Assembly (NCBI GenBank): GCA_933822405.4
Contig: CAKOGP040001001.1
Coordinates: 250,636-314,635 of the forward strand
DNA: 64,000 nucleotides
Direction of reading: 5' to 3'
Origin: Cylindrotheca closterium
Taxonomy: Eukaryota > Bacillariophyta > Bacillariophyceae > Bacillariales > Bacillariaceae
The notes beneath the pieces were generated by a model. It worked only from the letters and a program-made list of their open reading frames with translations, was not told where the DNA came from and did no database searches. The number at the start of each line of letters is the position of its first letter. Position 1 is the stretch's first letter. The position numbers and the translations under genes are program-made. Below, piece after piece: positions 3,779 to 58,274 of the stretch.

Positions 3779-4309
3779 GGTTGTTGTGTTCGTTTGTTTG
3801 TTGAGAAAAGGATTCACAATGTGTATTCCTGCTCTTACCAGAACAGCAGTTTCAAGTTGTTCGGGAATGTTTTATGGATGGGTGCGATAGTGATAGATCA
3901 GGTCGCTCCAAATTCTTGATGATATTTTTTTGGGCTTCGTCGCGAAGGGGAGAACTTCAATCATGGAATCGTTCTCGGGGTAAAAAACCTGGAGAACAAA
4001 AGTTTCCCTAATGTTTTGGTGGTGCGGGGCTGGTCAATATTTCACTGTTGAATATCAATGCCATCGTATCGAAATTTTGTGGAGCTAAAAACCCGAACTC
4101 TCGAAGGCACGAAGACGCAACCAAATCATAAAATAGAAAAGACCCGCCCCGCCTATTCCCCAGGTCATACCGGTACCGGTAGAACCAAGCACCCAAGAGA
4201 GTAACAGCGTTGAAAACAAGAATTAATGAGAGTACCAATAGCAATAAGTTTCCAGGTGAGTCTAGTTTGAGTTAGAGGAAAACTATTTTGATTCAATTTG
4301 TAGTTCAGA
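3779..4309. other. Intergenic spacer between the two channel genes
   Basis: About 530 bp holding the 5' flank of channel copy 1. The region just upstream of the ATG (about 3779-3817) closely matches that of copy 2, so the duplication extends into the 5' UTR. A double taccggta motif sits near 4169-4181. A minus-strand open frame at 4008-4244 has no family resemblance and is not called. Confidence 0.6.
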
Positions 4310-5797: not shown

Positions 5798-6705
5798 GGT
5801 CGTGTTCGTTTGTTGGCTGAGAAAGGGATTCACGATATCTATTGTTGCTGTTACCGGTGCTAGCGCAGTTGTTGGAGTTGAGGGATGTGAGTTCGTAAAT
5901 TAAAAGGTTCTCTCAAAGGTTGAGGTTTCGTTTGGGCCTTTTGGTGGAGTGCAAAACATCAAAAATGAGAACTCAAATCACAAAAACCAACAGAGCAATA
6001 GCTGGGAAAAACCTGAAGAACAATCCTCCACAAATTGTTCTGATCGATTTGAAAAAGGGTAGGAAGGATTATATAAAATACATTCGAATACATACAGTAC
6101 CGGTACGTAGTGTACCGGTACCTACAGTAATTTCCGAAACTTTTGACTACTCGTCGCATGAAATAAAATTTCCGAAACTTTTGACTCCTCTAAAATTTCC
6201 GAAACTTTTGACTCGCGATGGAGTCAACGCATTCACAAACAATGCAAAGGAACTTCTCTTGCAAAAGTAGTATTACGACATTTATTGTGTCTTAAAAAAC
6301 CTCAACTAGACTGATATAATTTTATATTTTGCATCATTTTCATTCGATTTCGTTTTCCTGCCATCTGGCTCCTCCCTTCCTTCCGTCTTAAAGGCAATCC
6401 CAATGATTCCCATCGGTTATGATCTCTAGTCTGTCGCTAACTTTGAAGTGTGGTTAGAAAACTTTCAGACGCTGCAAGCGAGGTTCTGGCGATGTTACAG
6501 ATGACAGCAGCCGTGAAGGGTGTCACAATTCTATCGCCCCAGTCGGCCTTCGATCGCCAGACGGACAATTAACGGATGAATAATCAATCCACCCGCCCGC
6601 CCGTCGGATCGAATGAATCGTTGGATTCAACATCATTCATTCGTGAACGAGACACGGGACGAATATTTTACAAACGCAGCACCAAAAGATATCAGCAACA
6701 TCACC
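5798..6705. other. Divergent promoter region between channel copy 2 and the dipeptidase
   Basis: About 900 bp with no supported gene. It contains two taccggta-type motifs (about 6102-6121) and the triple 20-bp repeat listed separately. The last ~90 bp before 6706 include an in-frame ATG at 6613, but the dipeptidase homology starts only after 6706. Confidence 0.6.
6129..6213. repeat. Three direct copies of a 20-bp element
   Basis: The 20-mer aatttccgaaacttttgact occurs exactly at 6129-6148, 6167-6186 and 6194-6213, with start-to-start distances of 38 and 27 bp. It lies in the divergent interval between an ion-channel gene (minus) and the dipeptidase gene (plus), so it could be a cluster of transcription-factor sites, but it could also be a small duplication with no function. 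Confidence 0.75.
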
Positions 6706-8331
6706 ATGAGCGAAGGGTTCCAGCAAAAGTTTTTTGACCATGTCGACAAGAACCAAGCCCTCTATATTGAACGGCTAGCTGAAGCCGTTGGAATTCCCTC
6801 TATTTCGTCTGACTTGGAAAACCATTTGGGCGATGTCAACCAAATGATTGATTGGACCAAGGCACACATTGACCGTCTAGGAGGAAAGACGAATCTCGTG
6901 GTGAATCCACTCAACTCTGACAAGATAACCTATCCACCGATCCTCTTGGGAGAGTTCCACGTGGACCCCAAGAAAAAGACAGTCTGTGTGTATGGACAGT
7001 AAGTCTCTCCCAGCGATGTGATTCGTGAAGTATTTCTCCCTTATTATTATTCCACCCGCGCTCATATATGTTAATCTATCTTCAGCTTGGATGTTCAGCC
7101 AGCCGAAAAAGACGACGGATGGGACACGGAGCCATTCACTCTTGTAGAGAAAGATGGAAAGCTCTATGGTAGAGGAAGTACTGATGACAAGGGGCCCGCT
7201 TTGTCTTGGCTATGGATTGTGGAAGCCCACCAAGCGTTGGGTGTCGACTTGCCACTCAACATCAAAATCATGTACGAAGGTATGGAAGAATATGGATCCG
7301 AAGGTCTTTTTGAAACGATTCGGGATGAAGGCAAGCCGGGACAGTTTTTGGATGATGTCGATTTCTTTTGCATTAGCGACAACTACTGGGTGGGCAAAAC
7401 AAAGCCATGCTTGACATATGGACTGCGAGGATTGGCCTACTTCCAAGTTGGTGTCAAAGGATGTGAACAAGACCTTCATTCTGGTAATCATGGTGGCGGT
7501 ATTCACGAAGCAATGACAGATTTGGTGCGCTTGATGGCCACTCTAGTCGATACCAATGGAAAGATTCTGGTGGACGGTGTTATGGATTCCGTCAAGCCAT
7601 TGACTCCAGAAGAAGAGGCCCTCTACGAGAGTATTGATTTTAATGTCGAAAGCTACAAGGAAGAAAACGGTGTCAAGAATGTCAGTGACAAACTCTTGTA
7701 CGATAACAAGAAGGACCTACTTATGCATCGTTGGAGGTATCCAACACTATCCATCCACGGAATCGAGGGCGCATTCAGCGGCAAGGGTGCCAAAACTGTC
7801 ATTCCTGCTGGAGTCAAGGGCAAGTTTTCGCTTCGACTGGTTCCCGATCAAGATCCAAAGCAAATTGAAAAGTGTGTGAAGGCACATTTGGAAACCGAGT
7901 TTGCCAAGCTCCAATCTCCCAACAAGCTAGAAATTGAATTGATTCATGGGGCTGTGGCTTGGTTGTCGGACCCGAAGCATCCCAACTACCAAGCAGCTGC
8001 AAGAGCGGTTGAGAAGGTGTATGGGTGTGAACCTGACTACACGCGTGAAGGTGGTAGCATTCCCATCACCTCTGCGATTGAAGAGGCTACTGGAATGAAC
8101 GTTCTGTTGCTTCCCATTGGGGCTTGCGATGACATGGCACACAGTCAAAATGAAAAGTACAATATTTCCAACATGATGAATGGTATCAAAGTGCTTGGTG
8201 TCTATCTCCATGAACTAGGAAAGATCCAAGGTCCGAAACCATCGGATTGCAAATGCATTCCGCTGACGCAAGAAGAGCTTATGGTTCCAGGAGCCTTCCT
8301 CCGAGGATTCAAATGCAAGTGTGAGATGTAG
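6706..8331 (+). CDS. CNDP2: Cytosolic non-specific dipeptidase (M20 family, CNDP2-like)
   Basis: Two exons, 6706-6998 and 7086-8331, with an 87-nt GT-AG intron. Splicing restores the canonical G-H-L-D-V-Q-P metal-site motif exactly across the junction. Product 512 residues. The ATG at 6706 (catcaccATGAG) is chosen over the one at 6613 because homology to animal CNDP2 begins here. Di-zinc ligands and catalytic residues are visible: the H of G-H-L-D-V-Q-P, the D of G-R-G-S-T-D-D-K-G-P, the E-E of E-G-M-E-E-Y-G-S-E, the D of C-I-S-D-N-Y-W, and the H of D-M-A-H-S-Q-N-E-K. The lid/dimerisation domain signature M-H-R-W-R-Y-P is present. The enzyme hydrolyses dipeptides in cytosolic peptide and glutathione-derived Cys-Gly turnover (family knowledge). 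Oddity: a C-terminal extension of about 35 residues with a D-C-K-C and terminal F-K-C-K-C-E-M, not part of the usual fold. Confidence 0.95.
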
Positions 8332-8567
8332 ACATCTGAACGTCTAGTTAGTTTTATACCATAGCTTCTATAATTAACGAGGACCAATTCCTAAATCTAT
8401 TCGGATGTAGTCAGTTTTCGACTTCGCATCATTGTTTCGTCAGACCAAATTCTTTGCGATGGGATTGATATCCCAAGCACTTTCTGAGGAGACTTCAACT
8501 ATAATGAAAGGGAGTTGATACTCTGGTATCAACTGTCCGCCGCCAAGGGTGGCACGCTGTAACGCCT

Positions 8568-10940
8568 TTATAGCATTGGCAACGCATCGCTTTCCCATGA
8601 TAGCACACTTTGTGCCATGTCTTCCTCGAGTACAATCTCAGGGATATTAAATGGGGTTGTTCCCCTGACGTGTCTGCCAAGTCTCGGCCTCGATGTTTCG
8701 ATTGGAGCTGCCCCGTGTTCCAAATCCATAATACCAGCAATACCAGCTTCATTCCCTAGACTCCAACTACGGCGACGGCCATTGTCCTCTGCTCTTTCTT
8801 GGTCGTTGTCGTTGTCGTCGTCTTCTTCTTCTTCTTGCTCTTCCTGTTGCGGCGGAACCCAATTGTGTCCATCTGGATGGTAACCATAGAACATGATCAT
8901 TAGACTCTCGTTGAATTGTGCTTGGTAATTATTCAATGGGAGATCGTTGGGTACATTCTTGAAGGGGTTCTCCAATTCTCGGGCCACCTCATGCAGTCCC
9001 ACAAAGCAAAGTACGGTAAACAAATTCAGTAGCAAGCCCATAATGAGGTTGTTGACAAAGGTGAGCATCAAGAGCGGCATGAATGCCACAATGACAAATA
9101 CGAAAAGAGTCGTGATTTGTGCGTGTGGAAAGGGGAATGGAATAAAGGCAATCTTGCGGGCTTGATTGTACCTATCAACAACAGATCCAGTAATGAAACA
9201 TGATCAAAGAAGCAAGAGGAATCATGAATGTGAGTGAGCAAACGTAATTTTTCAATGAGCAGTCCGTCACCACGAGCATCCAAAAAAAAAAATCGACACT
9301 CACCCTGCCATTCCTTCGCTGACATATTGGTATAGACGACTGACAATCGGTGGAGCAATGTTGCCCGTACTCCCTTGCAAGTATTCTCGACTCAAAAATT
9401 CTTGCAACCACAGGGAACATAAGGACACCTTGGCCAACGGCCCGCGTGCCTTTTGCAAGAGTTCAATTTCCGCATCCGATACATTCCCAATCACTCGAAA
9501 GGGCCGTGCTGCATTGTACAAGGTCCGACTGACATCATTTCTAGAAAGGCCCAACATATAGCGTATGCTGCTTGGCAAGCCAATGTTCCAACCGGTAATG
9601 AGACTCGAACTGGATTCCCATTCTTGCCGGACGTCCGCCATGTAGTCATCCGGGTCCACATGGGGCCAAGGTTCATTGGGAAAGAATTCAATTAATGGAG
9701 ACTCGGCCTCTTCCAAGTCATTTCGCAGTGTCGACATGGCCACGGCCGACAAGAGGGATAACAAATGGGCAATTTCTTCAAGAAAAAGTGCATTGGGTGG
9801 GATGGACATGATGGGTGGAGGTTTGGGTGGCTCGTCGTCGTTGTTGTTGTTGTTGTTGTTCCCCCACTCCTCCTCTGGTGGTGGTGCCAATTGAACCCCT
9901 TTTCTCCAGGTCCTTCGTGCGACTGTCGTAAATGTAGTAGTGTTGGCTCCGTATTCATTGTACAATGAGGGTTGCCGCTTATTCTTTTGCGTCTTCTTGT
10001 CAAGACCAAACAATTTATTCTTGCTTCGAGACCTTTGATTGTTGTTGACACCGCCGAAACAATCATCGTAATCATCGTCATCATTGGCCAAGCAGTTGTT
10101 GATATTTTTGCTATTGTTCCGCTGGTTGATCATTTTCGTTCGTTCACTGGTTCCTTTTGGCATGTGATAATTTGAGCGGGGAGAGTATTCCCGCTCTGGC
10201 TTGCTCTTCTTCTTCTTCGTCTTCTTCTTCGTTTTGTGCAGTGGCGGCTCCTCCTCTGGTGGTGGTTCGTCCTGAAAGTTCACCTTTCGTCGAAAGAACC
10301 GACTCCGCAAAGTGGAAGTCACGGAAGCATCCCCATTGATAGTGGCTTGATCGGCCATTTCTTCCAGGTGCAGTTCCAATTCTTCCTTGGTCATGGGTTC
10401 GTCCAGTCGTTCTCGTTCTCGAGACACGGCCATCATGTGCTGGGAGGGTGCCCCCGAAAATACCGAGGCTGCCATGGAAGCCGCGGGCGTACCAATGTTC
10501 TCGGGGTCACTCCAGTTCAAGACAAACGGCGACGCTATCGGCTCATAGGTACCAAAGGCCGGTGGTGCGTATTTTGAATACCTTTCGCTTTGGTAGTGAA
10601 AGGAAGCGACTTCGGTGGCAAAGTCAGTCCATTTGCTGTGCATTAAATGAATCGCCGAAAAGGCTTCCCAATACCGATGATAGGCAAAGTTGGCTCGAAA
10701 CACGAGCAAAAAGGAAAAGGCAGATACCAAGGCTCCGATCGGATACGGGTGATCAAACAGCACAACCTTGTTCGGGTCAGTAGCGTCTGCAACGTAGTTT
10801 TCCGGAACTCCCGAGTAGAAATACAGCAGCAAATATATGCCACACGAGAGAACCGCAAGAGTCAAGGACTTCCAAATTGCAGAACCATGCAGTCGAAATA
10901 GAACTTCAAATCCAAAGGCACCGCCGCCATATGTAATCAT
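8568..10940 (-). CDS. Bestrophin-family anion channel with a long low-complexity insertion
   Basis: Two exons on the minus strand, 10940-9304 and 9171-8568, joined across a 132-nt GT-AG intron (product 746 residues). The N-terminus (about 1-130) is a typical bestrophin/UPF0187 start: membrane segments around S-L-T-L-A-V-L-S-C-G-I-Y and G-A-L-V-S-A-F-S-F-L-L-V, then F-R-A-N-F-A-Y-H-R-Y-W-E-A. The C-terminal half has the conserved exit with L-L-M-L-T-F-V-N-N and N-P-F, followed by an acidic Glu/Asp tail. Between them lies an insertion of roughly 270 residues rich in Lys, Asn, Asp and Pro, with an Asn run coded by gtt/aac triplet repeats near 9838-9860. Plant and algal bestrophins act in thylakoids (VCCN1) or feed bicarbonate, but this protein has no clear plastid presequence, so its location is open. 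Confidence 0.88.
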
Positions 10941-28954: not shown

Positions 28955-30956
28955 CGTTCCGTTTGTATTGGAAACCTTTTCTGGCAACCAAAATGGTATT
29001 GTCCTGTTGTTCTGTGTTGAATGTGACACATGACACAAAGCAAGATTGAAAATAGCGCTGCTGGGCGAAAAAAATCGCACTTATGTAAGTTTGGAAGATT
29101 TCTATTACCAACGTAAAGGACGACGTGCTCGACAAGGGCATATGTATTAATAATTCTAAAATAAAACGGAGATCAAACGTGTGGATGGATGTTACCACCC
29201 ACCATACGCATGCATAATATACGGCCGGTAATCTACATTTTCAATTCAATACTGTTGTAGTTTCGTACCGGTACCGTTACCGGTACAACCAATCTTCATC
29301 AATAAAATCTCTAATGAAGGACAACATACAGCACCAAATATTATGGATGCACGAATCAGGTACTGTGCAGTAAGATTCTCGTCCAAGCGCATAAAAATCT
29401 CATGACCTGCAGCCAAGAACAACGAGCTACTACTAGAGTAGTAGTAGATACTGCTATGAGGATATCCTACAGTAGTATTTCGATCTCACATACAGTTTTC
29501 TGCCTCAAAAAGTCTTCGGTGAATTCGTCGCCCTCGTTATTATAGAAGAGTATTCAGCAAGTATAATACCAGGGTACCTATTTACTCGTTCGTACCCACC
29601 GGTACAGTACAGTACGCATTCTTTGGTCAATGATACGGACGAGGACGTACACGTGTATCGTACCGTACATCTCGTCCTCGTTTACGGTGACCGAAGGCAA
29701 CTAAAGTCAAATCAAAAGATGAGAACGAATGCCTTCAATCTCGACGTTGGGATCATGATTTTTCCTGATTCGATGTACTCATTGTCAATTGGATTCTTGT
29801 ATCTATCGAAAGCGCTCGAAGTTCCATTGTTCACTCGAATAAGATTGGGGTTCACGAAATCCACAAGCTGATCCAATAATAGTCCTACAATCGACAACGC
29901 ACGCAACTCCCACCAATACCTCGAGGCTACAAAACAAATGACTGCCGTGTATCTGTTCGCCGCGACAATGGCCACAGGACACGAACTCTTTCACTCTTCT
30001 TTACCAGAGTCATTCTGGTATTCGTGTCGTTTTCTTTCCCGAACACTGCAACGACTGCCTTCCAGGCTAAAATGGAGACCGCAAGTGGGGACTTTTGGGT
30101 TCGGATCGCGAGAGGCCTGCTGGCTGCTGGTCAAGTGTATGTCACTGTCTATCTAATCTTGGGAAACATGATATTCGTCAGGCCACTACAGGTGCCTACA
30201 ACAAGACCCATGGAAAAATGTGCTGCAAACTGTCGAATTCCAATAGAAAGGGAAAATGGACAAGTGTCGATTCATCGGGTTAGCTGTATCTCAAATGAAT
30301 CAATCCCAAAGTTTCACTTTTGCACTGGAGCAATCTGATGGGATTCAAAGCCACGCTGAGGTTTCCAATGATCTACAGCAGACATCCGATAAGAATTCAA
30401 ATGGTGCAAGACTATATCTGAGTGCCAGTCATACAAGGAAGTCTGATTGATCTGATATCAATGAAGTAACTTGGGGTCTGTGCGTGGGGCTTTCCACATC
30501 TGTGTGGGTGTAACTGGACACACGACTGCAGGTAGTACATGCAAAGAGAGAATTAATCACCACAAACTACCACAGGGCATGTTGTGGCGATAGATATAGA
30601 GTCCGCAAGAAGATCCCCGTGCCCAAAGCATAATTAAAACTAGAACTACTGTACTGTAGCACCTCACTCTCGACAGAAGGGAGAGCAACGTTTCCGAGAT
30701 TGGTAATGGGAGGATTGTATCGGGGATTTTACCTACCGTACAGTAAAGCAGGACATTAAATTGCTTCAAGTCGAGTAGGTCGTTTCCGCTCAAAAGCCGA
30801 CGAAAACTGTGAATACCGCGTGGAACAGAATTCTCAACCAAAAAAATCTTCGCGTTACATGCAACAGTAGACGAGCGACAGCAATGTTGTAGTGGATAGT
30901 GTATAGTGGATAGTGGAGAGTGGATAGTGGCAAGGGCGACAAATGTGCATGAAGTA
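28955..30956. other. 2-kb intergenic region
   Basis: No supported gene. It contains taccggtaccgttaccggtac (about 29266-29287) and another accggtac near 29600. The last ~60 bp (30890-30925) are a short tandem of gtggatagtg(t/g)atagtggagag type. Short open frames at 29712-29975 and 30024-30338 lack an ATG start or family resemblance. Confidence 0.5.
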
Positions 30957-30957
30957 A
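30949..30957 (+). promoter_or_regulatory. Two-codon upstream ORF overlapping the ATPase start
   Basis: The sequence atg-aag-taa ends on the A of the main ATG (taATG at 30955-30959). The same arrangement is present at the inverted copy (56710-56718). Overlapping stop-start signals of this kind can lower or couple translation, but no effect can be shown from the sequence. Confidence 0.5.
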
Positions 30958-33900
30958 TGACCGTATCAATACCAGAAGAAGATGAGATTCCCTTGAACGA
31001 CGTCGACGGAGATGGTGTATCAAAAGTGCTTTCACTTGTTCATAGTAATGATGACCTGTTGTCTGTGTTCTCGGACGAAGATGCTTTACTTTCCCTTGCG
31101 CCCAATGCCATTGAAGTCAGCAGCTATGGTGGCAGTCAAAGAAGTGACAGGCATACCGGTACCATTGACATATCCGATCAGTCCATCAAGTCGTCAGAGC
31201 TGAGAGAGCAAACAAGCAAAATCAGATTTGATGGCGATGTATCGTCAAAACATTTCGCTATAAAGCTTGATTTTGATTCGATTGGGTTGGTCGGCAGACA
31301 GAATCAAATATCGACGTTGATATCCTGCTTTGATCGACTCTGTAAAGACAAGGCCTCAAACTCGCCAAACGACGACCGCAACCAAAAGGAAATGGTGTTT
31401 GTTTCGGGGGAAAGTGGATGTGGAAAAACAAGAACTGTGAAGACACTTGAAAGTCGCATGCTGGAGACCAAGACTGGTCTATTTGTCGAGGGAAAGTTTG
31501 ATTTGAACACAGTCGACGAACCATATTCGGGTATTGCCAAAGCAATCGCTGCGATCTGCGAGAAGATCCTTAATGGTGATAAAAGTCATGCGAAGGATAT
31601 TCGGGACAAGATATCGAATGCACTACATGACGAGGAAGTTCAACTGCTAGTCCACCTCGTACCGGCTCTGTCCGATATTATTTCAGCTGATGCAATAGGG
31701 GCCACTGTCGGCGTAGACATTGACGATTTAGAAAGCGGCATAGAGAGGCTAAAACGCACTTTTCGGCTGTTGCTTCGCACTTTCTGTGAACATTTTGCCC
31801 CGATGGTTCTTTTTCTTGACGATTTGCAATGGGCGGATGTTTCATCGATACAAATGATCGATTACCTGATATCCGATACTGAAAATGAAAACTCCCTAAT
31901 GATCATCGGATCGTACAGGTCCGATGAAGTTGACGAAAACAGTTTATTGCACAACAAGATCCTTGCATTGCGAGATAAGAGTGTAACGTATAACTTCCAT
32001 GTAACGGAAGTGGACATTCCTTTGTTTGATATCGATGATATAATGACAACGATCAAGTCCGTGTTTTTATCGGTAAAAGAGGACGACAGCAGAGCACTGG
32101 GGGGACTGTGTCTGAAGCGAACGTTGGGGAATCCATACTTCGTCTTGGAGTTCTTGAAGACGTTATATCATGAGGGACTGGTTAGTTACAACACTGTCAC
32201 TAACATGTGGACTTGGAACCTTACCAATATTGAAGATGCAGCCATGTCGACGGCGAACGTTGTAGTATTGCTCCAGGATCGAATGAAACGGTTGTCGAAG
32301 TATGCACAAATGTTCCTAAGGTGCGCTGCATATCTAGGATCAACCTTCAGGAATACCACGCTAGAACTTATTTGGAAGAGTCACAATATGCCAATGACAG
32401 TAGCTGATAAGCCCGTTTTGCCGTTGCTGATGGGAATGGCAGTGAAAGATAGTTTCATTGAAGAATGCGGATCTGACAAGTATAGATGGGTGCACGACAA
32501 AGTGCAAGAAGCAGCTTTTTCTCTTATCCTAGATGTCAAGGTGTCCCAGTTTGACATTGGACGGATTTTGTTCTATTATCTAGAGCCCAGTCAGCTGGAG
32601 CAAGATCTGTTCGCTGTGGTTGATTTGATCAATAATGGGAACAAAGAGAAAAGTTCAGAGTTTGCGCATGCGAACTTGCAAGCTGCCGAGAAGGCGTTGG
32701 GTCTTTCAGCCTTTTCAGCTGCGGCCAAATATGCAACGCATGGGATCGATCAACTCAACGACAACCGATGGTCACAAAATCGTCCAATGACACTCAGGCT
32801 TTACACGATTGGCGCGGAAATGGAACGCCTGTTGGGGAATGTGACAGCCGCTGAGCGCTATCGCTGTGAAGTTCTTAGCCGGACGGACCTGGACATCATG
32901 GAATCTCTTCCTTTGAAACTGGCAACAGCTAGTAATTTGTCATCGGTCGAGCTAAAGTTTGATGAAGCTGTCGCCTATTGCTTGGACGTGCTGAAAGAGT
33001 TGGGATGCAGAGTGTTCATTTCACGAAAGATTTTGAAAGCACAAGCTGTCATGTCTTTGTTTCGAACGATACGGCGGGTGAAGAAATTACCTAGTGATCA
33101 TTTTGACCATGCCAAGATGATGGAAAACGAGAGACAACTGGGCATTGCGAAATTAATAACAAGGGCTGGAGTCTCGGCTTATCTCTCTGGCGATATCATG
33201 ATATCCGTGATATGTGCCTGCAAGCTAGTTGAAGGCTCTCTTCAACATGGTCTCAATGAGGCCTCTGCATCAAGTCTTTCAGGCCTAGCAACCATGACTA
33301 TTATTGTGCTGCAGGACTTCAAAACAGCCACCAAATTCAACGAAATGGCCCTCAGTCTACTGAAGAAACACCGTCAAATGCACAATGGCGAGACTTTGTT
33401 GAATGCGTACACACATGGTCACGTATGGGTTAAGCCAGTGGATTCTTGTCTTCCTGCTATTTGGGATGGGTACCGATGTTCGATTCGATCTGGTGACAGT
33501 GAGTTTGCAAGTTGGAATCTCTCCTTACACCAGATTCTCCTACCATTCTATTTTGGCAAACCCCTACCCCAAATCCTTGCCAGATGCCCATCTGTGATGC
33601 GTCAATTCGAAGACGGAGCTCAATCGCAACAAATACTGATTCACAAGGTCATATGGCAAACAATGGCAAATCTACATGACTCTTCATGCCGAGAACCATG
33701 GAAATTGGAGGGAGAAATCTTCCATGAAAACGACGATATTGAAAAAGATAACATTCACGCTGGAACGGTGCTTCTAGCTCAAGGCGAACTACTTCTATTT
33801 CATGGCGACTGCCGTACCGCAGCTGACATGGCACTGGAGAATGGGGATGCATATCAAAAGCTGGTACCAGCAAACTTTGCCAACATGTTCGAAGCGTTTC

Positions 33901-34310
33901 ATCGAGCGCTTGCATCATATGCAATGGCTCTTCGAACAAGGAAGAAGAAATACAAGAAAGAGGCGAAACGGGTACGACGGATGCTGACAAAGTGGGTATT
34001 GGCAATAGAAAATCCGGAGTTCAACTACTTCAAAACTGTGCTCGACGCGGAACAGTTTGCGGTGGAGAAGAAACACGACAAAGCAGAAAAGCATTACGAT
34101 GAAGCAATCAAATCAGCAACAATCCGGGGCCACCTACACTATACAGCTTTGTTTCATGAGCGCTACTCCGAGTATCTCTTGGTTGAGCTTTCAAATCTGG
34201 GGAAATCCAACGAGGAACTAAGGAAAGCCATAGACTGCTACAAAGCATGGGGTGCGGATGGCAAAGTCAAAGCACTGGAATCCAAATTGGCTCTTCGAGA
34301 CGGGCAATAG
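30957..34310 (+). CDS. STAND-class ATPase (COG3899/AAA_16) with TPR-like C-terminal half, copy 1
   Basis: 1117 residues from the ATG at 30957; the 17 upstream codons start with GTG. After an acidic N-terminus of ~105 residues comes G-L-V-G-R-Q-N-Q, the AAA_16 entry motif. Walker A G-E-S-G-C-G-K-T is at 151-158, then V-E-G-K-F-D and P-Y-S-G-I-A-K-A-I. Walker B is L-F-L-D-D-L-Q-W-A-D (about 285-294), followed by I-G-S-Y-R-S-D-E-V. These are hallmarks of the predicted ATPases attached to bacterial multidomain kinases and to soluble adenylyl cyclases. The C-terminal ~550 residues are helical repeats resembling TPRs (A-E-K-H-Y-D-E-A-I-K-S-A). No cyclase or kinase domain is attached. Inferred role: nucleotide-regulated signalling scaffold. 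A second intact copy lies inverted at 53363-56710. Confidence 0.85.
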   Translation: MTVSIPEEDEIPLNDVDGDGVSKVLSLVHSNDDLLSVFSDEDALLSLAPNAIEVSSYGGSQRSDRHTGTIDISDQSIKSSELREQTSKIRFDGDVSSKHFAIKLDFDSIGLVGRQNQISTLISCFDRLCKDKASNSPNDDRNQKEMVFVSGESGCGKTRTVKTLESRMLETKTGLFVEGKFDLNTVDEPYSGIAKAIAAICEKILNGDKSHAKDIRDKISNALHDEEVQLLVHLVPALSDIISADAIGATVGVDIDDLESGIERLKRTFRLLLRTFCEHFAPMVLFLDDLQWADVSSIQMIDYLISDTENENSLMIIGSYRSDEVDENSLLHNKILALRDKSVTYNFHVTEVDIPLFDIDDIMTTIKSVFLSVKEDDSRALGGLCLKRTLGNPYFVLEFLKTLYHEGLVSYNTVTNMWTWNLTNIEDAAMSTANVVVLLQDRMKRLSKYAQMFLRCAAYLGSTFRNTTLELIWKSHNMPMTVADKPVLPLLMGMAVKDSFIEECGSDKYRWVHDKVQEAAFSLILDVKVSQFDIGRILFYYLEPSQLEQDLFAVVDLINNGNKEKSSEFAHANLQAAEKALGLSAFSAAAKYATHGIDQLNDNRWSQNRPMTLRLYTIGAEMERLLGNVTAAERYRCEVLSRTDLDIMESLPLKLATASNLSSVELKFDEAVAYCLDVLKELGCRVFISRKILKAQAVMSLFRTIRRVKKLPSDHFDHAKMMENERQLGIAKLITRAGVSAYLSGDIMISVICACKLVEGSLQHGLNEASASSLSGLATMTIIVLQDFKTATKFNEMALSLLKKHRQMHNGETLLNAYTHGHVWVKPVDSCLPAIWDGYRCSIRSGDSEFASWNLSLHQILLPFYFGKPLPQILARCPSVMRQFEDGAQSQQILIHKVIWQTMANLHDSSCREPWKLEGEIFHENDDIEKDNIHAGTVLLAQGELLLFHGDCRTAADMALENGDAYQKLVPANFANMFEAFHRALASYAMALRTRKKKYKKEAKRVRRMLTKWVLAIENPEFNYFKTVLDAEQFAVEKKHDKAEKHYDEAIKSATIRGHLHYTALFHERYSEYLLVELSNLGKSNEELRKAIDCYKAWGADGKVKALESKLALRDGQ

Positions 34311-37760: not shown

Positions 37761-40700
37761 ATGCACGGCCTCGTATATGAAATCTTCGAAGAGTGGGTGC
37801 TCGAGCAACAGGGAGTCAATGCATGGCACGCAATCAAGGCAAAGGCAGGTTGCGATGTCCAGGATCAAGCCTTCGTCACAAGAACATTTTACAGTTACGA
37901 TTCTTGGGTCGACCTCATCACAGCTGCCGCTGATGTGTTGGATTCATCATTCGATACAATCCTTGAGGCATATGGTCATTTCAATATCAGATACCACTTT
38001 TCACATGGTTACGACGCATTGCTGAAATGTCAAGGGTCAACCTTGCGACAATGGTTGTCGAATCTCAATGCTATGCATGATCATATTCAGAAAAGTTTCC
38101 CAGGTGGAAACTTTTGCCCCCCTGTCTTTTGGTGCGAAGACTCAGACTCAGAAGCCTACGAAGGAAGTATTCTATTACATTACTACAGTCAACGTGGGAA
38201 TCGGTTAGTAGCCTGGGTTGTGGGCATTGTGAAGGTAAGCAATATTTGGATTTTCTAATGCACGATTTTTCAGTACGATCTGACGGAATTGATTTGTAGG
38301 AGCTCGCGTCGTACCACTTTCGGGTCGAGATTGACATGGAAAGGCTATCACTGCAGGACGTGGATGGTTCAAGTTTTACAACCTGGAGGATAGTTGCTAC
38401 TGATCCGACACAAACCTGGAAGCTCTCTCCAAAGGTCTCCCACAACGTTGACGAGGAAGAAGTCAACTTCGATGACGTGCCGTTGCCTGCCAAGTGCCCA
38501 TTTTCGGGACGAAAGCTGAAGAAAAAGACAATCGAAACTAAAGAAATCAAGGAACCGACCGCACAATGTCCTTTTCCACAAAGCCAAGACACCAAGACCT
38601 CCACACTGGAAATTAGTGAAGAATCTGATGCTTCCACGAGCAAGTGTCCATTTCCTCATCACCAAATCATCAAGGCCTCTGCTGACGAGACTGTTGATAC
38701 TGCTGATAGCTCAATGACTAGCTCAGAAGACTTCGCTGGTGTTTCTTACGACAGAATGAAGGACATTTTCCCGTTCCATGTTCTGGTGAACAACGATTTC
38801 CATGTTGTCCAAGTTGGATCGAAGCTTCCAAAGCTTCTTCAGCGAAGGGCAAGTGAAATGATGGGAAGTCATATTAACAAGTTTCTGGAAATCACCAAAC
38901 CGGTTCTTGGAACATCATGGAACTGGAATAATATGAAGAAGCTGGCCGATCAAAACTTCATCCTATCTCCTTTGATCGCTACAAAGCCTCTGGGAAGAAA
39001 GGTTGTCATGTCAGATGAGAGAACCAAATTCAAGGCATCTATGGTCGAAACATCACATGAAAGGGTAATGTTCGTCTTGAGTCCTGAAGTTTCAAACGTC
39101 ACTGAACTGAACAATATGGGCTTGACTCTATCTGATCTTCCATTGCAATCCAATCAACGCGATGCCGTTTTCTTAGGAGAATATGTGACACAAGAAGCTG
39201 ACAAGGCTCACAAGCTTGACAAGCTGAGCAGAAAGCTTGATGAGGAAAAGAATCTATCAAACACGCTATTGCATAGCATCATCCCCCACAAAGTTGCTGA
39301 CGATCTCCGTCGAGGAAAAACAGTTGATCCAGTCTTTCATGAAAACGTGACTCTTTTCTTTTCTGATATCGTCGGCTTCACTAAAATATGTGACCAAGTT
39401 GAGCCTTGGGATGTTATTGATATGATGAATCAACTCTTTTCTATCATGGACTATCTTGCTGCGCATTTCAACTTGTACAAGGTTGAAACGGTTGGCGATG
39501 CGTACATGTGAGAATATTCGAATTGACTTGTACCTTCCTCATTTTTATTGTCCCTCACGCTATTTGCTTTTATGATCATAGGTGCTGCTCAGGACTTCCA
39601 GAACCGGATGAATTTCATGCTGAGAACGTTACGAACTTTGCCCTGGCTGTTATTGAATGCACCAAACACGTCAAGTCACCAGTCGATGGATCACCAGTGA
39701 AGATGCGCATTGGTATTCATACTGGCAGCTGTACCTCTGGAGTTGTCGGCACCATGACCCCCCATTACTGTCTGTTTGGAGATATGGTGAACGTAACGGC
39801 TCGCCATGAGTCTACTGGTATTCCTGGCAAGATTCACTGCTCGAGTGTTTTGTTCAGTCGCCTCCGCACTTTTGCCAAGCTGGACGAACCACTGTACAAC
39901 TTCAAGGCCCGTGGTCTTGTCGATATGAAAGGAAAAGGGCAAAACTACACCTATTTTGTCGAGAGTGGAACTGAATTCAACCGAGGGGCCAACTCCGAGG
40001 CACTTGCAGAACTTTCAAAACAAGCTGAACACATGATCGCTTCGAAGACATGGAAAAAGAGAAAGTACTTTCGCAAGGGAGGATTGGTCGATACTCTTTC
40101 AGTTGCTGAGAACTCCATGAGCTCTCAAAGTGAAAGTTCTGGCAGTGGACCCGAGGAAGAGAGCAGCATTGGCTGTATCGTCGAAACACTTTCTCCACAA
40201 GACGAAGGCAACGGCTCGTTTTGTAGTTGTGATAGCCTCCTTGAAGGTGACATCGACCTTGATGAAGATGACACCGCAGGGTCCGGCCCTACAATCATTG
40301 ATCTATCGGACGAGCAGCGTTTGCACTTCGGCAAAAGTTGGGAGAGTATCAAGTGGGACGAGACCTTGACGTTGGAACAGTCTCTGGAGCGAATCACAGA
40401 TGTGCTTTCATCGTGTTTACAGCAGTGTGTTCACAAGAGCGCCAACAGAATGGAAACTGTCATTGCTGAATTGGAAGAATTTGTAAAGCGAATCGCCTAT
40501 CTCTACAATGCAAACAATCCGTATCATAATTTCGATCAAGCAGCACAGGCATTCACCAGGGCAATATATCTTTGGGATGTTTGGGTGACTTCTCGGATTG
40601 ATCAGAACAAGTCGTTTTACGACAATCCTTGGGACCGTTTTGCTCTTCTCTTTTGTGTTTTGATCCATGGAATTGGTCACGAGGGTGTGGCAAATGCGCA

Positions 40701-42870
40701 GCTTGAAGCGGAGAAGCATGTGTATTTTCAATTGAACCCGGGCAGAGGAGCGTACCAGCAACGATATGCTTTCATTACTGCATTTGAATTACTTGAGGAA
40801 GATTTTGCGGATTTGTACGAGGAGATCATCTTTGGCTGCCCAAGTTTCCGTGGTTCGTTGCGCAAATTGATGGTGGCCACCGACATCGAAACAGAAGAGA
40901 AGCTTCTGGCGATTGTTCAAGAGTATGATGCACTAACTGAGAATGAGTCGATGGACGCGCGTGGAGTCAAAGAGTTGAACGACTCGAAACTCTGTTTAGT
41001 TGTATGCACTGCAATGATTGGCCATTACACACAATCCTACGATGCTTTCATTCAGCGAAATCAACTGCAGTTTGAAGAGATTCTGAAGGCTTTTCGGAAT
41101 GATCGAGCGGAGGATCCACGCGACAGTTGGTTTTACGAACAAAACATGTACTTCAAGAATGCCGTGGTGCCTCTCATCACACGCATGCAAGATGTGTTTC
41201 CGTCCCTTGGCTATGTCCAGAAACTTGTCAAAGCAAACACTATTCTCTGGGGAGACACAGGAAGAGAATGGGTTGCGGCAACCAGGCTTCCAGGGGCCAT
41301 AGTCGGCAGCACTTCGGCGAAGAAGTACTGCGATATGTCTATGGAAAGTCTCATTGCCAATAACGTCGACATCTTGGAGACGCTGCTGAGAGATGTCGCT
41401 GCATCTCATGATTCCACCACTCCATTTGACACAGGTCTTTCAAGGCAGTCGATTGGAGCTACCAATCCTGTTGATGAAATCAAACTGGTGATCGAGATGA
41501 AAAAGGTGAAAAGTGATTCCAATTCAAACCAAGCTACTCCAGAACTCAGCCCAGAAGTTCGCTCTGAGCTTCGTGACTTTGTTGTTCAAATTGCCAATGG
41601 CTATGAGGGAAACCAATTCCACAACTTCATGCATGCAAGTCATGTTACGCACCTTGCAAATCTACTTCTGACCGGAATCCATGCCAAAGAAGGGTCCAAA
41701 GATGCGAGTGGTATTGCTCATGATCCAGTTGCCAAGTTTGCCATTGTTCTCTCTGCTTTGGTCCACGATGTTGGCCACACTGGAATTCCGAACCGTCAGT
41801 TGGCTGATGAAAATCCAGGTCTCGCCGAGAGGTACAACAACATGAGTATTGCCGAGCAAAACTCAATCGACACGGCATGGGCAATTCTAATGTCTGACAC
41901 CTACCGCAATCTTCACAAGTGCCTCTTTGAATCGCTCGAGGAGAAACAGCGACTCCGTCATTTGCTTGTCAATTGCGTCATGGCCACTGATATTTTTGAC
42001 CAGAACCTTCGGGAAACTCGCAAAATTCGATGGGAAAAGGTTTTCCATAAGAACTCGGCTGCCTCGTACGAGGACGACGAATCCAATACGAAAGCGACGA
42101 TTGTGATTGAGCAACTTATGCAAGCATCTGATGTTTCGCACACAATGCAGAAGTGGGAGCTTTACCAAGAGTGGAACGAGAATCTTTTCAACGAGTTGTA
42201 CGATGCCCATCAGGATGGCCGAACACCCAAGGATCCATCGAGCAACTGGTACAATGGCGAGCTGTGGTTCTTTGACAATTGGGTGATTCCGCTTGCTGAA
42301 AACCTTCGAGAATGCGGTGTTTTGGACATTGTCAGCAACCAGCTCATCAAGCAAGCTCACAGTAATCGAAAGCAGTGGGAGCTTGAAGGGAAGCAAATTA
42401 CTGAGGCCTTGACAAAAGCTGCAATAGCAAGACATAAGCAGCGAAGTGCCCCTCGAATACCCTCAGTCACCTCCAGCACCTCGCTTTCCTCGCTTGCCTC
42501 TACGACGTCACATGGATCGGAATTGATATTGACGTCCCGCATTATCTCTGAGGTCGAGACATTGTCCAAGGTCGTTAGGCGGTACGAGCGGAAAATTGAG
42601 ACTGCCTGTGGCAATCTTATCGCGGTGGCCTACAAAGGGCAATTAGGCTCTGAAGAGTTGAAGGGGCAACCCTGGGACAAGATCCACAGCCATTTCAAGC
42701 AGCAGGAATGGTATCGGATGCATTCGGATGATGGCTTTAGCCTCCCCGATGGAAGTGAAGTGCTAGCATTTCGAGACCCATCTGGACGGTCCGGAAGCCG
42801 GATGGTGCAGTGTTTGATGGAAGATCTGTCGGATGAATTGTCCGAAGTCGAGAATATCGTCAACGGCTGA
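37761..42870 (+). CDS. H-NOX / guanylate cyclase / tandem phosphodiesterase fusion
   Basis: Exons 37761-38234, 38300-39507 and 39582-42870 (introns of 65 and 74 nt, GT-AG; the second lies inside the cyclase motif V-G-D-A-Y-M) give 1656 residues. Residues 1-185: H-NOX heme domain opening M-H-G-L-V-Y-E, with proximal-type His106 in N-A-M-H-D-H and the heme-propionate Y141-x-S143-x-R145. Linker 215-300 has three C-P-F motifs (Cys 224, 248, 274). 308-500: HNOBA/PAS-like region and coiled coil. 505-690: class III cyclase with F-F-S-D-I-V-G-F-T and V-G-D-A-Y-M; the E of K-V-E-T and C of Y-C-L-F-G-D indicate GTP as substrate. About 830-1110: a PDE-like HD domain with altered metal residues. About 1215-1500: an intact PDE domain (F-H-N-F-x-H, L-V-H-D-V-G-H-T-G, A-S-D-V-S-H-T). 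The protein is probably soluble. It can both make and degrade a cyclic nucleotide (inference from domains). Confidence 0.93.
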
Positions 42871-53362: not shown

Positions 53363-56300
53363 CTATTGCCGGTCTCGAAGAGCCAATTCGGATTCCAGTG
53401 CTTCGACTTTGCCATCCGCACCCCATTCCTTGTAACAGTCTATAGCTTCTCTTAGTTGCTCGTCGGATTTCCATCGATTTGAGAGCTCTACAAAGAGATA
53501 CTCGGAGTAGCGCTCATGAAACAGACCTGTATGATAGAGGTGGCCTCGGAGTGTTGCTGATTTGATTGCTTCATCGTAATGCTTTTCTGCTTCATCGTAT
53601 TTCTTCTCTACCGCAAACTGTTCCGCGTCGAGCGCAGTTTTGAAGTAGTCGAACTCAGGATTTTCCACTGCCAACACCCACTTTGTCAGCATCCTCCGTA
53701 CCCGTCTCGCCTCTTTCTTGTATTTCTTCTTCCTTGTTCGAAGAGCCATTGCGTACAATGAAAGCGCTCGATGAAACGTTTCGAACATGTTGGCAAAGTT
53801 TGCTGGTACCAGCTTTTGGAATGCATCCCCATTCTTTAGTGCCATGTCAGCTGCTGTGCGGCAGTTGCCATGAAATAGAAGTAGTTCTCCTTGGGCTAGA
53901 AGCACCGTTCCAGCGTAAAGGTTATTTTTTTCAATATTGTCGGTGTCACGAAAAATTTCTCCCTCCAATTTCCATGGTTCTCGGCATGCAGAGTCATGCA
54001 GATTTGCCATAGTTTGCCATATGATCTTGTGGACCAATATTTGTTGTGATTGAGCTCCTTCTTCTAATTGACGCATCACGCCTGGGCACCTTGCAAGGAT
54101 TTGCGGTAGGGGGTTGCCAAAGTAGAACGGTATGAGAACCTGGTGTAGGAGGAGATTCCAACTTGCAAACTCACTGTCGCCTGCTCGAATTGAACATTGG
54201 TACGCATCCCACAGGGCAGGAAGACAAGATTCCAGTGGCTTCACCCATACGTGTCCATGTGTGTATGCTTTAAACATAGTCTCGCCATTGCGCATTTGAC
54301 GGTGTTTCTGTAGAAGACTGAGGGCCATTTCGTTGAACTTTGTGGCCGTTTTGAAGTCCTGTAGGGCAACAATGGCCATGGTTGCCAAGCCAGAAAGACT
54401 TGATGCGGATGCCTCGTTGAGACCATGTTGAAGAGAGCCTTCGACAAGCTTACTGGCACATAGCACGGTCAGCATGATATCACCAGAGAGGTAAGCCGAG
54501 ACTGCCACTCTTTCTAACAATTTCGCAATGCCCAGTTCTCTCTCGTTTTCCATCATTTTGGCATGGTCAAAATGATCACTAGGTAATTTCTTCACCCGTC
54601 GTATCGTTCGAAACAAAGACATGATAGCTTTTGCTTTCAAAATCTTTCGTGAAATGAACACTCTGCATCCCAAGTCTTTCAACACGTCCAAACCGTAGGA
54701 AACGGCTTCATCAAACTTCAGCTCGACCGATGACAAAGTACTAGCTCTAGCCAGTTTCAAAGGAAGAGATTCCATGATGTCCAGGTCCGTCCGGCTAAGA
54801 ACTTCGCAACAGTACCGCTCCGCCGCTACCACATTCCCCAATAGACGTTCCATTTCCGCGCCGATCGTGTACAGCCGGAGTGTCAGGGGACGATTTTGTG
54901 ACCATCGGTTGTCGCCGAGTTGATCGATCCCATGCGTTGCATATTTGGCCGCGGCTGCAAATGCTGAAAGACCCAACGCTTTCTCGGCAGCTTGCAAGTT
55001 CGCATGCGCAAACTCTGAACTTTTCTCTTTGTTCCCATTATTGATCAAATCAACCACAGCGAACAGATCTTGCTCCAGCTGACTGGGCTCTAGATAATAG
55101 AACAAAATCCGTCCAATGTCAAACTGGGACACCTTGACATCTAGGATAAGAGAAAACGCTGCTTCTTGCACTTTGTCGTGCACCCATCTATACTTGTCGG
55201 ATCCGCATTCTTCAATGAAACTGTCTTTCACTGCCATACCCATCAGCATCGGCAAAATGGGCTTATCAGCTACTGCCATTGGCATATCATGGCTCTTCCA
55301 AATAAGTTCTAGCGTGGTATTCCTGAAGGTTGATCCTAGATATGCAGCGCACCTTAGGAACATTTGTGCATACTTCGACAATCGTTTCATTCGATCCTGG
55401 AGCAATACTACAACGTTCGCCGTCGACATGGTGGCATCTTCAATATCGGTAAGATTCCAAGTCCACATGTTAGTGACACTGCGATACTCAATCAGGTTTT
55501 CGTGATACAGAGTCTTCAAGAACTCCAAAACGAAGTATGGATTCCCTAACGTTCGCTTCAGACACAATTCCCCCAGTGCTCTGCTGTCGTCTTCTTTTCC
55601 CGACGAGAACATTGCCTTGATCGTTGTCATTACATCATCGATACCAAATACAGGGACGTCCACTTCCGTCACACGAAATGTATACGTGGCACTCTTATCT
55701 TGCAATGTAAGGATCTTGTTGTGCAATAAACTATTTTCATCAACTTCATCTGACCGGTACGATCCGATGATCATTAGGGAGTTTTCATTTTCCGTGTCGG
55801 ATATTAGGTAGTCGACCATTTGTAGCGATGAAACATCCGCCCACTGTAAGTCGTCTAGGAAAAGCACCATTGGGGAAAAATGTTCACAGAAAGTGCGAAA
55901 CAACAGACGAAATGTGAGTTTCAGCCTGTCAATACCGCTTTCTAAATCGTCAATGCCTAAGCCGACAGAGACCTCTTTCGCATCAGCAGAGATGATATCG
56001 GAAAGCGCCGGTACGAGGTGGACTAACAGCTGAACTTCTTCGTCATGTAGTGCATTCGATATCCTGTCCCGAATATTCGTCGCATGACGTTTGTCACCAT
56101 CAATGACCTTCTCACATATCGCTGCGATTGCTTTGGCAATACCCGAGTATGGTTCGTCGACTGTATTCAGATCAAACTTTCCCTCGACAAATAGACCAGT
56201 CTTGGTCTCCAGCATGCGACTTTCAAGTGTCTTCACAGTTCTTGTTTTTCCACATCCACTTTCCCCCGAAACAAACACCATTTCCTTTTGGTTGCGGTCG

Positions 56301-56710
56301 TCGTTTGGCGAGTTTGAGGCCTTGTCTTTACAGAGTCGATCAAAGCAGGATATCAACGTCGATATTTGATTCTGTCTGCCGACCAACCCAATCGAATCAA
56401 AATCAAGCTTTACAGTGAAGTGTTTAGACGATACACCGCCATCAAATCTGATTTTGCTTGTTTGCTCTCTCAGCTCTGACGACTTGATGGACTGATCGGA
56501 TATGTCAATGGTATGCCTGTCACTTCTTTGACTACCACCACTGCCCATGACCACAACGGCATTGGGCGCAAGGGAAAGTAAAGCATCGTCGTCTGAAAAC
56601 ACAGACAACAGGTCATCATTATCAGGAACGAGGGAAAGCACTTTGGACACCCCATCTCTGTCGACGTCGTTCCAAGGAATCTCACGTTCTTCTGGTATTG
56701 GTACGGTCAT
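53363..56710 (-). CDS. STAND-class ATPase (COG3899/AAA_16) with TPR-like C-terminal half, copy 2 (inverted)
   Basis: 1115 residues from the ATG at 56710. It has the same architecture as copy 1: acidic N-terminus, G-L-V-G-R-Q-N-Q, Walker A G-E-S-G-C-G-K-T, Walker B L-F-L-D-D-L-Q-W-A-D, I-G-S-Y-R-S-D-E-V and a helical-repeat half with A-E-K-H-Y-D-E-A-I-K-S-A. All nucleotide-binding residues are intact. About 240 bp spanning Walker A (around 56170-56410) is nearly identical to copy 1, while the N-terminal 100 residues and parts of the repeat region carry many substitutions. The frame is fully open over 3.3 kb, which argues that both copies are under selection. Confidence 0.85.
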   Translation of the reverse strand: MTVPIPEEREIPWNDVDRDGVSKVLSLVPDNDDLLSVFSDDDALLSLAPNAVVVMGSGGSQRSDRHTIDISDQSIKSSELREQTSKIRFDGGVSSKHFTVKLDFDSIGLVGRQNQISTLISCFDRLCKDKASNSPNDDRNQKEMVFVSGESGCGKTRTVKTLESRMLETKTGLFVEGKFDLNTVDEPYSGIAKAIAAICEKVIDGDKRHATNIRDRISNALHDEEVQLLVHLVPALSDIISADAKEVSVGLGIDDLESGIDRLKLTFRLLFRTFCEHFSPMVLFLDDLQWADVSSLQMVDYLISDTENENSLMIIGSYRSDEVDENSLLHNKILTLQDKSATYTFRVTEVDVPVFGIDDVMTTIKAMFSSGKEDDSRALGELCLKRTLGNPYFVLEFLKTLYHENLIEYRSVTNMWTWNLTDIEDATMSTANVVVLLQDRMKRLSKYAQMFLRCAAYLGSTFRNTTLELIWKSHDMPMAVADKPILPMLMGMAVKDSFIEECGSDKYRWVHDKVQEAAFSLILDVKVSQFDIGRILFYYLEPSQLEQDLFAVVDLINNGNKEKSSEFAHANLQAAEKALGLSAFAAAAKYATHGIDQLGDNRWSQNRPLTLRLYTIGAEMERLLGNVVAAERYCCEVLSRTDLDIMESLPLKLARASTLSSVELKFDEAVSYGLDVLKDLGCRVFISRKILKAKAIMSLFRTIRRVKKLPSDHFDHAKMMENERELGIAKLLERVAVSAYLSGDIMLTVLCASKLVEGSLQHGLNEASASSLSGLATMAIVALQDFKTATKFNEMALSLLQKHRQMRNGETMFKAYTHGHVWVKPLESCLPALWDAYQCSIRAGDSEFASWNLLLHQVLIPFYFGNPLPQILARCPGVMRQLEEGAQSQQILVHKIIWQTMANLHDSACREPWKLEGEIFRDTDNIEKNNLYAGTVLLAQGELLLFHGNCRTAADMALKNGDAFQKLVPANFANMFETFHRALSLYAMALRTRKKKYKKEARRVRRMLTKWVLAVENPEFDYFKTALDAEQFAVEKKYDEAEKHYDEAIKSATLRGHLYHTGLFHERYSEYLFVELSNRWKSDEQLREAIDCYKEWGADGKVEALESELALRDRQ

Positions 56711-56718
56711 TACTTCAT
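56710..56718 (-). promoter_or_regulatory. Two-codon upstream ORF overlapping the ATPase start (inverted copy)
   Basis: Read on the minus strand: gcATGAAGTAATGACC, identical to the start region of copy 1. Resemblance between the two loci begins almost exactly at this element and is lost upstream of it. Confidence 0.5.
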
Positions 56719-58274
56719 GCAACTTTTCTTATAATCTTGCCCTCTATTCTTCTTCCATCACAGACACGCGACAGCAGTGACAACATCCCAAAATGTACGA
56801 ATATTTTTTGAAAAAGGGCTCCTCCTGCAGTATATATACAGTATGTACCGAATACTGCATACGGAATTAGAAGTTTCTGTGCGCGTCAGCGCACTTTGTA
56901 CGAAAATTAGGAGTAAGTGCGAATGAAATAGTGAATAAATGATGCATTGATTTTGATGGCAACATCAATCTGGCGATGCTTACTGTGCTCAAATAAGCTC
57001 AAATCTGGATGAACCTGTTGAAATAATCCTACCCAACGCTTCTACGGGCTGGTGGAACATGGTGAGGCAAAAAGAAGTGGCGAAATATGCCTTGGGGTTA
57101 CGAAAATGGCATTTTTGTAGTTTCCGATAATCGAGGGTGTTCCAGTTTTGTTTATCTACTGTCTTTGTAATTGCCTCTAGTCACCCGGAGTGCATATAAC
57201 ATTTTACTTTCATAAATTCATATAGATTGTGAGTGAAGTTTATTGGTTGAAAATTATTTCAGACTTCTCCGCAATCCATTCTTTAGCCGATCACGAAAAC
57301 TGCAAAATCGACATTTTGCTCAAATAAGCTCAATATGGCCCAATATGACTTGAAATATGATCTAGTGGAGAATATTATTCGATTTTCCATCAAAGCTATA
57401 GGGCGGTCACAATCCACCATCGATGTGCCATTCATTGCCAATGGTTTCGAAAATCCGCATGCTTATTGTGTTTGATGAAAAGCCGTCGAATGAGTCGATT
57501 ATTCGGACAAAGGAAGAACAGAAATATTCCTTGAAGAGATTGACATACTACCGGAACCGAAAAATTGGGATGTTTGTTTTTCTTCAAACCTACTAGGACC
57601 CTTCCGGTACACGTACTTGTATAGTGCCAATATAGTATCTAGATTTGAGATTGGCAGATGGGGTCACCGAATTATTGTGAGTTGATGACGAATGCTGACA
57701 GTTATTGGATGACTATCATTCTATTTTTCATCACACGCCTACCGTATACCATTTTAGCTTGCCATGTCAGGAGCTGTAGCTTCTTGGTCTGCAACACCGC
57801 TATATGTCATCAAGACTCGTCTACTGACGAGCGAGTCAAGACAATCTTTCTCGTTCCCTCCAAAATGAGTCCAGCAGCGTGATCAGCAGCACCAATGCCA
57901 AATCGTCCAACAAGAGGGTCCGAAGGTCATGTTTAGTGGAATTAACGAACGATGTTTGTAAGCTATTCTTCGATTTGGAACCACCTTGGCCATACACGAT
58001 GCTTTAAAAGCCTTTGTGTCGTCGGCTGGGTGGCTATCACCACATATGTTGTCATGACAATTTTAGCAACTTTTGTAACGTCGAGTCGTCTTTTTGGTTT
58101 CGTAATACAATAGTATCATAATGCTAAGCCATCTCTTCCCCTTGGGCATGTTTCCTCCAACCGAATCACACAGTAGATAGAATTCACGAATGACTGTATT
58201 GAGGATTTTATATTGATGTATACTTTTTATTTTTCTCATCTCGATGATTGTAGGAAATATGATCTAGCGTCTGT
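56719..58274. other. 1.5-kb intergenic region with a degenerate repeat
   Basis: The phrase gctcaaataagctcaa occurs near 56987 and again near 57318, each in a setting of tgatggcaac/tcgacattt sequence, suggesting an old duplication about 330 bp apart. Open frames such as 57658-57882 show no family resemblance. Confidence 0.5.

Follow-up and report, generated by a model that had tools for sequence, protein, structure and literature searches.

The window analysed here, a stretch of 64,000 nucleotides from the diatom Cylindrotheca closterium (positions 250,636 to 314,635 of contig CAKOGP040001001.1, our contig C101, in an assembly of 47.6 Mb and 572 contigs), carries a three-exon gene for a predicted protein of 1656 amino acids (aa). 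In this protein an H-NOX heme domain, an HNOBA region, a guanylate cyclase and two phosphodiesterase (PDE) domains, referred to as PDE1 and PDE2, follow one another. We suggest that it is probably a gas receptor resembling the beta subunit of soluble guanylate cyclase (sGC), possibly working as its own homodimer, in which an H-NOX domain of the nitric oxide (NO) type would drive the cyclase, PDE2 would limit cyclic GMP (cGMP) and PDE1 would have a regulatory or scaffolding role. What appears to be new is the merger of an sGC-type gas receptor with the cyclase-PDE plan of diatoms, with a conserved pseudo-PDE in between. The features, all on the forward strand of the window, are as follows:

37761..42870, forward strand: whole gene, exons 37761-38234, 38300-39507 and 39582-42870; 1656 aa, equal to the deposited protein P0001
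37764..38341, forward strand: H-NOX domain, aa 2-172, spanning intron 1 (38235-38299); Pfam HNOB, 4e-32, and AlphaFold fold match
38076..38078, forward strand: His106, predicted proximal heme ligand, aligned to sGC beta-1 His105
38181..38195, forward strand: Y141-x-S143-x-R145, heme-propionate motif, aligned to beta-1 Y135, S137 and R139
38214..38216, forward strand: Trp152, where the alignment places beta-1 Ile145 (distal pocket)
38492..38659, forward strand: linker with three Cys-Pro-Phe motifs, KCPFSG (38492-38509), QCPFPQ (38564-38581) and KCPFPH (38642-38659)
38744..39307, forward strand: HNOBA (PAS-like plus coiled coil), aa 307-494; Pfam 5.4e-30
39338..39963, forward strand: class III guanylate cyclase, aa 505-688, spanning intron 2 (39508-39581); Pfam Guanylate_cyc, 4.4e-57
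40450..41232, forward strand: PDE1, pseudo-phosphodiesterase, aa 851-1111; with Gln880 and Gly924, without the last Asp, and with Gln1081 retained
41548..42369, forward strand: PDE2, metal-competent phosphodiesterase, aa 1217-1490; H1241, H1245, H1289, D1290, H1293 and D1411, with Glu1454

Both introns are of the GT-AG type, the exons join in frame without a single internal stop, and the translated product is 100% identical to P0001, a C. closterium protein listed in databases as 'unnamed protein product' and 'guanylate cyclase'. P0001 being the depositor's gene model for this very DNA, this means that the first-pass annotation, which had read the three exons as one polypeptide, and the depositor agree, the mRNA not being independently proven thereby. 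The profiles proposed for a check (HNOB, HNOBA, Guanylate_cyc and PDEase_I) all matched the 1656-aa protein, PDEase_I in two stretches (E 4.1e-39; the best one, 1240-1471, lies within PDE2), and these matches are far beyond chance.

Three lines point to a single mRNA for the H-NOX, cyclase and PDE parts. In paralogue P0002 (locus L009) both introns interrupt the protein where they do here (158/159 and 561/562); at locus L018 one exon encodes aa 1-550 of P0010, spanning both H-NOX and HNOBA; and the four Pfam families are present in proteins from the transcript sets of MMETSP, which we take to be a transcriptome project, namely P0020 (Ditylum) and P0029, as well as in the transcript-set protein P0018 despite its cut N-terminus. 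The origin of the deposited model from the same DNA would also fit an artefact of gene modelling, the H-NOX exon belonging to a different mRNA. We rejected this explanation as hardly credible in view of the intron positions, the L018 exon, the transcript-set relatives and the recurrence of the same domain string at 14 loci of the genome.

A profile search of the contigs of this genome gave 15 H-NOX matches (in one step of the domain search 150 of 227 candidates were scored, and family counts are those among the matches listed). At 14 of these loci (the window and L009-L021) same-strand HNOBA, cyclase and PDE matches follow, with two PDE domains at 13 loci and one at L015, and the heme His is kept at 12. 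The other two, L020 and L021 (G000:C330:246092, 253811), have F or I in place of the heme His, and their PDE2 is without its last metal Asp, but their cyclase residues are kept; the same combination of losses and retention, within the same architecture, occurs in P0029, P0031, P0034 and P0035, and all of these might be partner subunits without heme. The fifteenth match, L022 (G000:C340:210000-219900), is a 495-codon H-NOX frame (3269-4756, minus strand) without a cyclase or PDE, which stands next to a divergent HNOBA-HisKA-HATPase_c frame (5064-9899, plus strand), and the pair might represent a split, bacterial-like sensor and kinase in a diatom.

When residues 1-500 were used as a query, 46 proteins were found, the window's own included, in a set that contains cluster representatives and fragments, as well as four proteins without H-NOX (P0028, P0044-P0046). 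All four Pfam families occur in 32 of the 46, three of them from transcript sets; 10 have no Pfam-listed PDE, and our own profile detected a degenerate PDE in four of these (P0013, P0022, P0033, P0036). It is therefore well supported by the predicted domain content that the H-NOX-HNOBA-cyclase-PDE architecture is a recurrent diatom family and not a one-off, and the proposal that a gas-sensor-type domain, a guanylate-type cyclase and PDE domains share one polypeptide holds up well. A predicted metagenome protein of 2537 aa, P0048, combines six globin stretches with three PDEase_I stretches and a guanylate cyclase; it is possibly a fused gene model, and it may be a further cyclase-PDE headed by a heme domain.

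The N-terminal domain has the profile, the fold, the proximal His and the Y-x-S-x-R motif of H-NOX proteins, and the heme residues named in the first-pass annotation were located as claimed and align to those of human sGC beta-1. An AlphaFold model of exon 1 (pLDDT 91.8) matched sGC beta-1 (8hbe_B) with TMq 0.90, the Nostoc H-NOX (2o09) with 0.87 and the Thermoanaerobacter tengcongensis H-NOX with 0.73-0.77. Among the homologues with a residue at the heme-ligand position, 38 of 42 have His there.

The beta-1 Ile145 position is, we assume, part of the distal pocket, where a Tyr is presumably linked to O2 binding; in the alignment no Tyr occurs there in any of the 38 His-bearing homologues, which have M (11), W (9), L (8), F (8), V (1) or C (1). 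Distal residues and fold together favour an NO-type sensor, without proving it, and a genome search found three NO_synthase matches on contig C478, apparently two genes. The ligand could instead be CO, O2 or the redox state, a suggestion to which Trp152 and the variability of the distal residues lend some weight. The linker is relevant here as well: its Cys-Pro motifs, which we take to resemble the heme-regulatory motif, could supply a heme or thiol switch, and a CP[FVL] motif is found at least once in 38 of the 42 homologues with a linker, and CP[FV] at 13 of the 14 loci of this genome. Given the missing distal Tyr, a fold and sequence nearer to NO-type than to O2-binding H-NOX, and the NO-synthase matches, we consider such a ligand rather unlikely, and NO is retained as the favoured one.

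The cyclase bears the guanylate-type specificity residues at the places assigned to them, KVET (E554) and YCLFGD (C624), and the same motifs are found in human sGC beta-1. Both metal Asp (D514, D558) stand on one chain with the guanine and transition-state residues (E554, C624, N631, R635), so a homodimer with complete sites is possible, and we predict the cyclase to be possibly homodimeric. A hydropathy scan, made without a dedicated predictor, revealed no stretch resembling a membrane helix in the 1656 aa; the maximum was 1.36 (19-residue window) versus 2.6-2.9 in four receptor-type relatives. With the order H-NOX, HNOBA, cyclase, no membrane-like span and a complete residue set for a homodimer, the protein is predicted to be of the sGC type.

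The catalytic residues of PDEs, as known from PDE4, are a general-acid His, two metal His, two metal Asp and the next His. PDE2 has the full signature of six (HHHDHD), with Glu1454 at the 'invariant' nucleotide-binding Gln position. In PDE1 the signature reads HQHGHM, Gln880 replacing a metal His and Gly924 the bridging Asp, and the last Asp is gone; the nucleotide-binding Gln (Gln1081) is retained. Thus PDE1 has the fold of class I PDEs without their metal ligand set, whereas PDE2 has the ligand set without the invariant Gln.

This division recurs across the family. In the 23 two-PDE proteins PDE1 is never complete (0/23) and never has the last Asp (0/23), but has the Gln in 21, while 18 of the PDE2 domains are complete and 19 carry the Glu. 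An incomplete PDE2 is found in five proteins, P0024 and the four without a heme His (P0029, P0031, P0034, P0035). Among the 17 proteins of the same set with a single PDE, six are complete and have the Gln (P0016, P0019, P0020, P0025, P0027, P0032) and 11 are incomplete. Single-PDE relatives without H-NOX were complete in 80 of 81 cases and had Glu at the invariant-Gln position in 81 of 81 among the matches listed, a count that comes from the nearest relatives, as the search was limited to the best 120 of 651 proteins ranked by likeness to PDE2. The first-pass annotation had spoken of two phosphodiesterase domains, and as folds both are indeed present and recognised by the PDEase_I profile; a full metal site for catalysis is present in PDE2 only. 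That both are catalytically active, as that wording implied, is very unlikely, since PDE1 lacks two metal ligands and the last Asp and is incomplete in all 23 two-PDE homologues.

PDE1 is not decaying. The ratio of nonsynonymous to synonymous substitution rates (dN/dS) was 0.19 for PDE1 and 0.16 for PDE2; for PDE1 it was 0.17-0.19 in three comparisons and 0.10 between L020 and L021, a pair in which PDE2 is saturated. Purifying selection implies a maintained pseudo-PDE, and we rejected the idea of decaying junk on these values, even if the L014/L016 pair gave 0.27. In the PDE1 columns of the two-PDE proteins, the pocket Gln is conserved in 34/36 (top 8% of columns) and the neighbour at D+11 in 35/36 (top 6%).

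A purely structural PDE1, serving as a spacer or as a dimerisation surface, e.g. for pairing with PDE2, and having no ligand of its own, is a serious contender, to which we give somewhat less than an even chance. The metals are gone while the fold is preserved in the structure model, PDE1 and PDE2 were modelled jointly with a predicted TM score (pTM) of 0.83, the Gln is missing from five single-PDE relatives, and the clamp aromatic is poorly conserved. On the other hand, the conservation of the Gln and of the D+11 residue exceeds the needs of a mere scaffold, even if a structural cause for it is possible.

Several observations weigh against the proposal of a gas receptor with a maintained PDE1 and a cGMP-limiting PDE2. 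The clamp aromatic of PDE1 is F in only 18/36 and Y in 6/36, and the Gln is replaced by C in P0013, P0022, P0033 and P0036 and by R in P0038 (three of these five are from Seminavis, and their metal site is incomplete too). PDE1 changes faster over long distances: identity to P0003 is 76% for PDE1 and 84% for PDE2, identity to P0007 is 39% and 63%, and the mean majority fraction per column is 0.55 versus 0.70. In the L014/L016 pair the dN/dS of PDE1 (0.27) is clearly higher than that of PDE2 (0.16); for this pair the cyclase value cannot be relied on, the exon boundaries being different. The heme His is lost in P0029, P0031, P0034 and P0035, which cluster in the PDE tree, and in human PDE9 a Gln-to-Glu exchange lowers both affinity and selectivity for cGMP, according to the available part of the report (PMC3069055). 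A search with PDE1 reached 6 proteins, the query included, as the word filter it uses works best on domains that change slowly.

A tree built from 77 PDE domains sets 23 PDE1 domains and the PDEs of 16 single-PDE H-NOX proteins opposite PDE2 and the receptor-type PDEs (Shimodaira-Hasegawa-like approximate likelihood-ratio test, SH-aLRT, 99). It is a quick tree from which P0045 was left out, its root lies on a long branch, a long-branch warning applies to human PDE4B versus the PDE1 side, and PDE2 as one group has a support of only 60. The PDE1 side comprises a group of 33 domains (support 95), all incomplete, including ten single-PDE H-NOX proteins, and beside it six domains, all complete. Parsimony requires three changes for the loss of completeness in the whole tree, and these fit the base of the 33-domain group, the four heme-less proteins and P0024.

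An internal tandem duplication giving rise to PDE1 and PDE2 was rejected, as they lie on opposite sides of the branch with SH-aLRT 99, and a death of PDE1 following the gain of PDE2 was dropped, as parsimony puts one metal loss in the ancestor of the 33 domains, before the second PDE. In the simplest account of the sequences, the family's own PDE would have lost its metals first, and a receptor-type PDE would have been fused later, restoring the predicted hydrolysis. PDE1 would then have been retained after its catalytic death, and PDE2, a fresh copy from a different lineage, would have been added later as a backup. The tandem copies L009 and L010 (G000:C101:455500-471200) do not differ at all across PDE1 (268 codons) and the PDE1-PDE2 linker (109 codons), while they differ at about 3% of synonymous sites in the cyclase and PDE2 and at 11% in the tail, a pattern due to either gene conversion or an assembly effect.

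Taken as a gas receptor, the protein would work as follows. A gas, most likely NO, would bind the H-NOX heme, and by analogy with animal sGC, HNOBA and the coiled coil would relay this to the cyclase and switch it on. PDE2, presumably derived from the receptor-type cyclase-PDE lineage, would hydrolyse cGMP beside its source, so that the signal would be limited in strength, in reach and in time. PDE1, the older PDE of the family, would have been retained after metal loss to serve in regulation or dimerisation, and might bind cGMP without cleaving it. Built-in signal termination, as put forward earlier, is thus plausible through PDE2, but not through the pseudo-PDE PDE1. By analogy with PDE9, the Gln-to-Glu exchange hints that PDE2 might be a weaker-binding limiter acting at micromolar cGMP and not a tight off-switch, and the pocket of the diatom domain may have compensated for the Glu. 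A role of Glu1454 in making PDE2 guanine-specific was dropped, as human PDE9 Q453E shifts the opposite way.

A bolder and rather improbable version is that PDE1 is an enzyme turned receptor, which holds cGMP in its Gln pocket, reads the product level and sets the activity of PDE2 or the cyclase, with L020 and L021 acting as alpha-like partners. If this were true, one chain would combine gas sensor, synthase, product sensor and hydrolase, and L020/L021 would constitute a second, independent invention of a heme-less sGC subunit.

Elsewhere in the window, two adjoining minus-strand frames (2225-3871 and 4310-5899) match Neur_chan_LBD and Neur_chan_memb and resemble a pentameric ligand-gated channel. 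On either side of the region lies a long AAA_16 ATPase frame, one on the plus strand (30900-34310) and the other on the minus strand (53363-56728).

Databases already show the domain string through precomputed Pfam hits; in openly licensed full text we found neither a description of an H-NOX, cyclase and PDE architecture or of the pseudo-PDE, nor an account of NO perception in diatoms. The 14-locus family is an obvious candidate for an NO receptor of diatoms, and it would let a single gas sensor govern both the making and the hydrolysis of the same messenger. As far as the available parts of the reports go, cGMP has been implicated in diatom mate recognition (PMC4726125, PMC8027222, PMC5485032). 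A 'soluble guanylate cyclase' of Pseudo-nitzschia multistriata is induced 6.3-fold by sexual cues (PMC5485032), and in C. closterium one cyclase and one PDE gene, with loci not named in the accessible text, were among the strongly changed genes chosen for quantitative reverse-transcription PCR (PMC7058042).

Among known systems, Chlamydomonas CYG12 is an algal sGC-type protein which, like the window protein, has an extra C-terminal domain; it differs in having 991 residues, and a PDE is not mentioned in the available portion of its description (PMC2576301). The Glu of PDE2 has a counterpart in human PDE9 Q453E (PMC3069055; PDB 3qi3), which is still active: in the accessible part of that study the KM for cGMP rises from 0.113 to 2.8 uM, kcat is halved and the selectivity ratio falls from 337 to 29. 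Q453E is, however, an engineered mutant, whereas Glu occurs naturally in the diatom single-PDE relatives without H-NOX counted above.

The closest likeness of the N-terminal part is to sGC beta-1 (human 6jt0, Manduca 6pas), with which the window protein shares the order of H-NOX, HNOBA/coiled coil and cyclase and the heme and guanine residues. It differs in bearing both cyclase metal Asp on its own chain, where human beta-1 has Gly for the first, and in adding the Cys-Pro motifs of the linker and two C-terminal PDE domains. In their combination of cyclase and PDE on one chain, the membrane-type GC/PDE proteins of Seminavis robusta are alike; such diatom fusions are described, in the sections available, as membrane proteins responding to sex pheromone (PMC4726125, PMC8027222). 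These are described with two transmembrane segments and an extracellular part, whereas the window protein has H-NOX instead, no N-terminal membrane-like segment, and, unlike the Seminavis proteins as portrayed there, a pseudo-PDE between cyclase and PDE. Its PDE2 nevertheless groups with the PDE of the receptor-type GC/PDE proteins, and the Glu signature is common to both.

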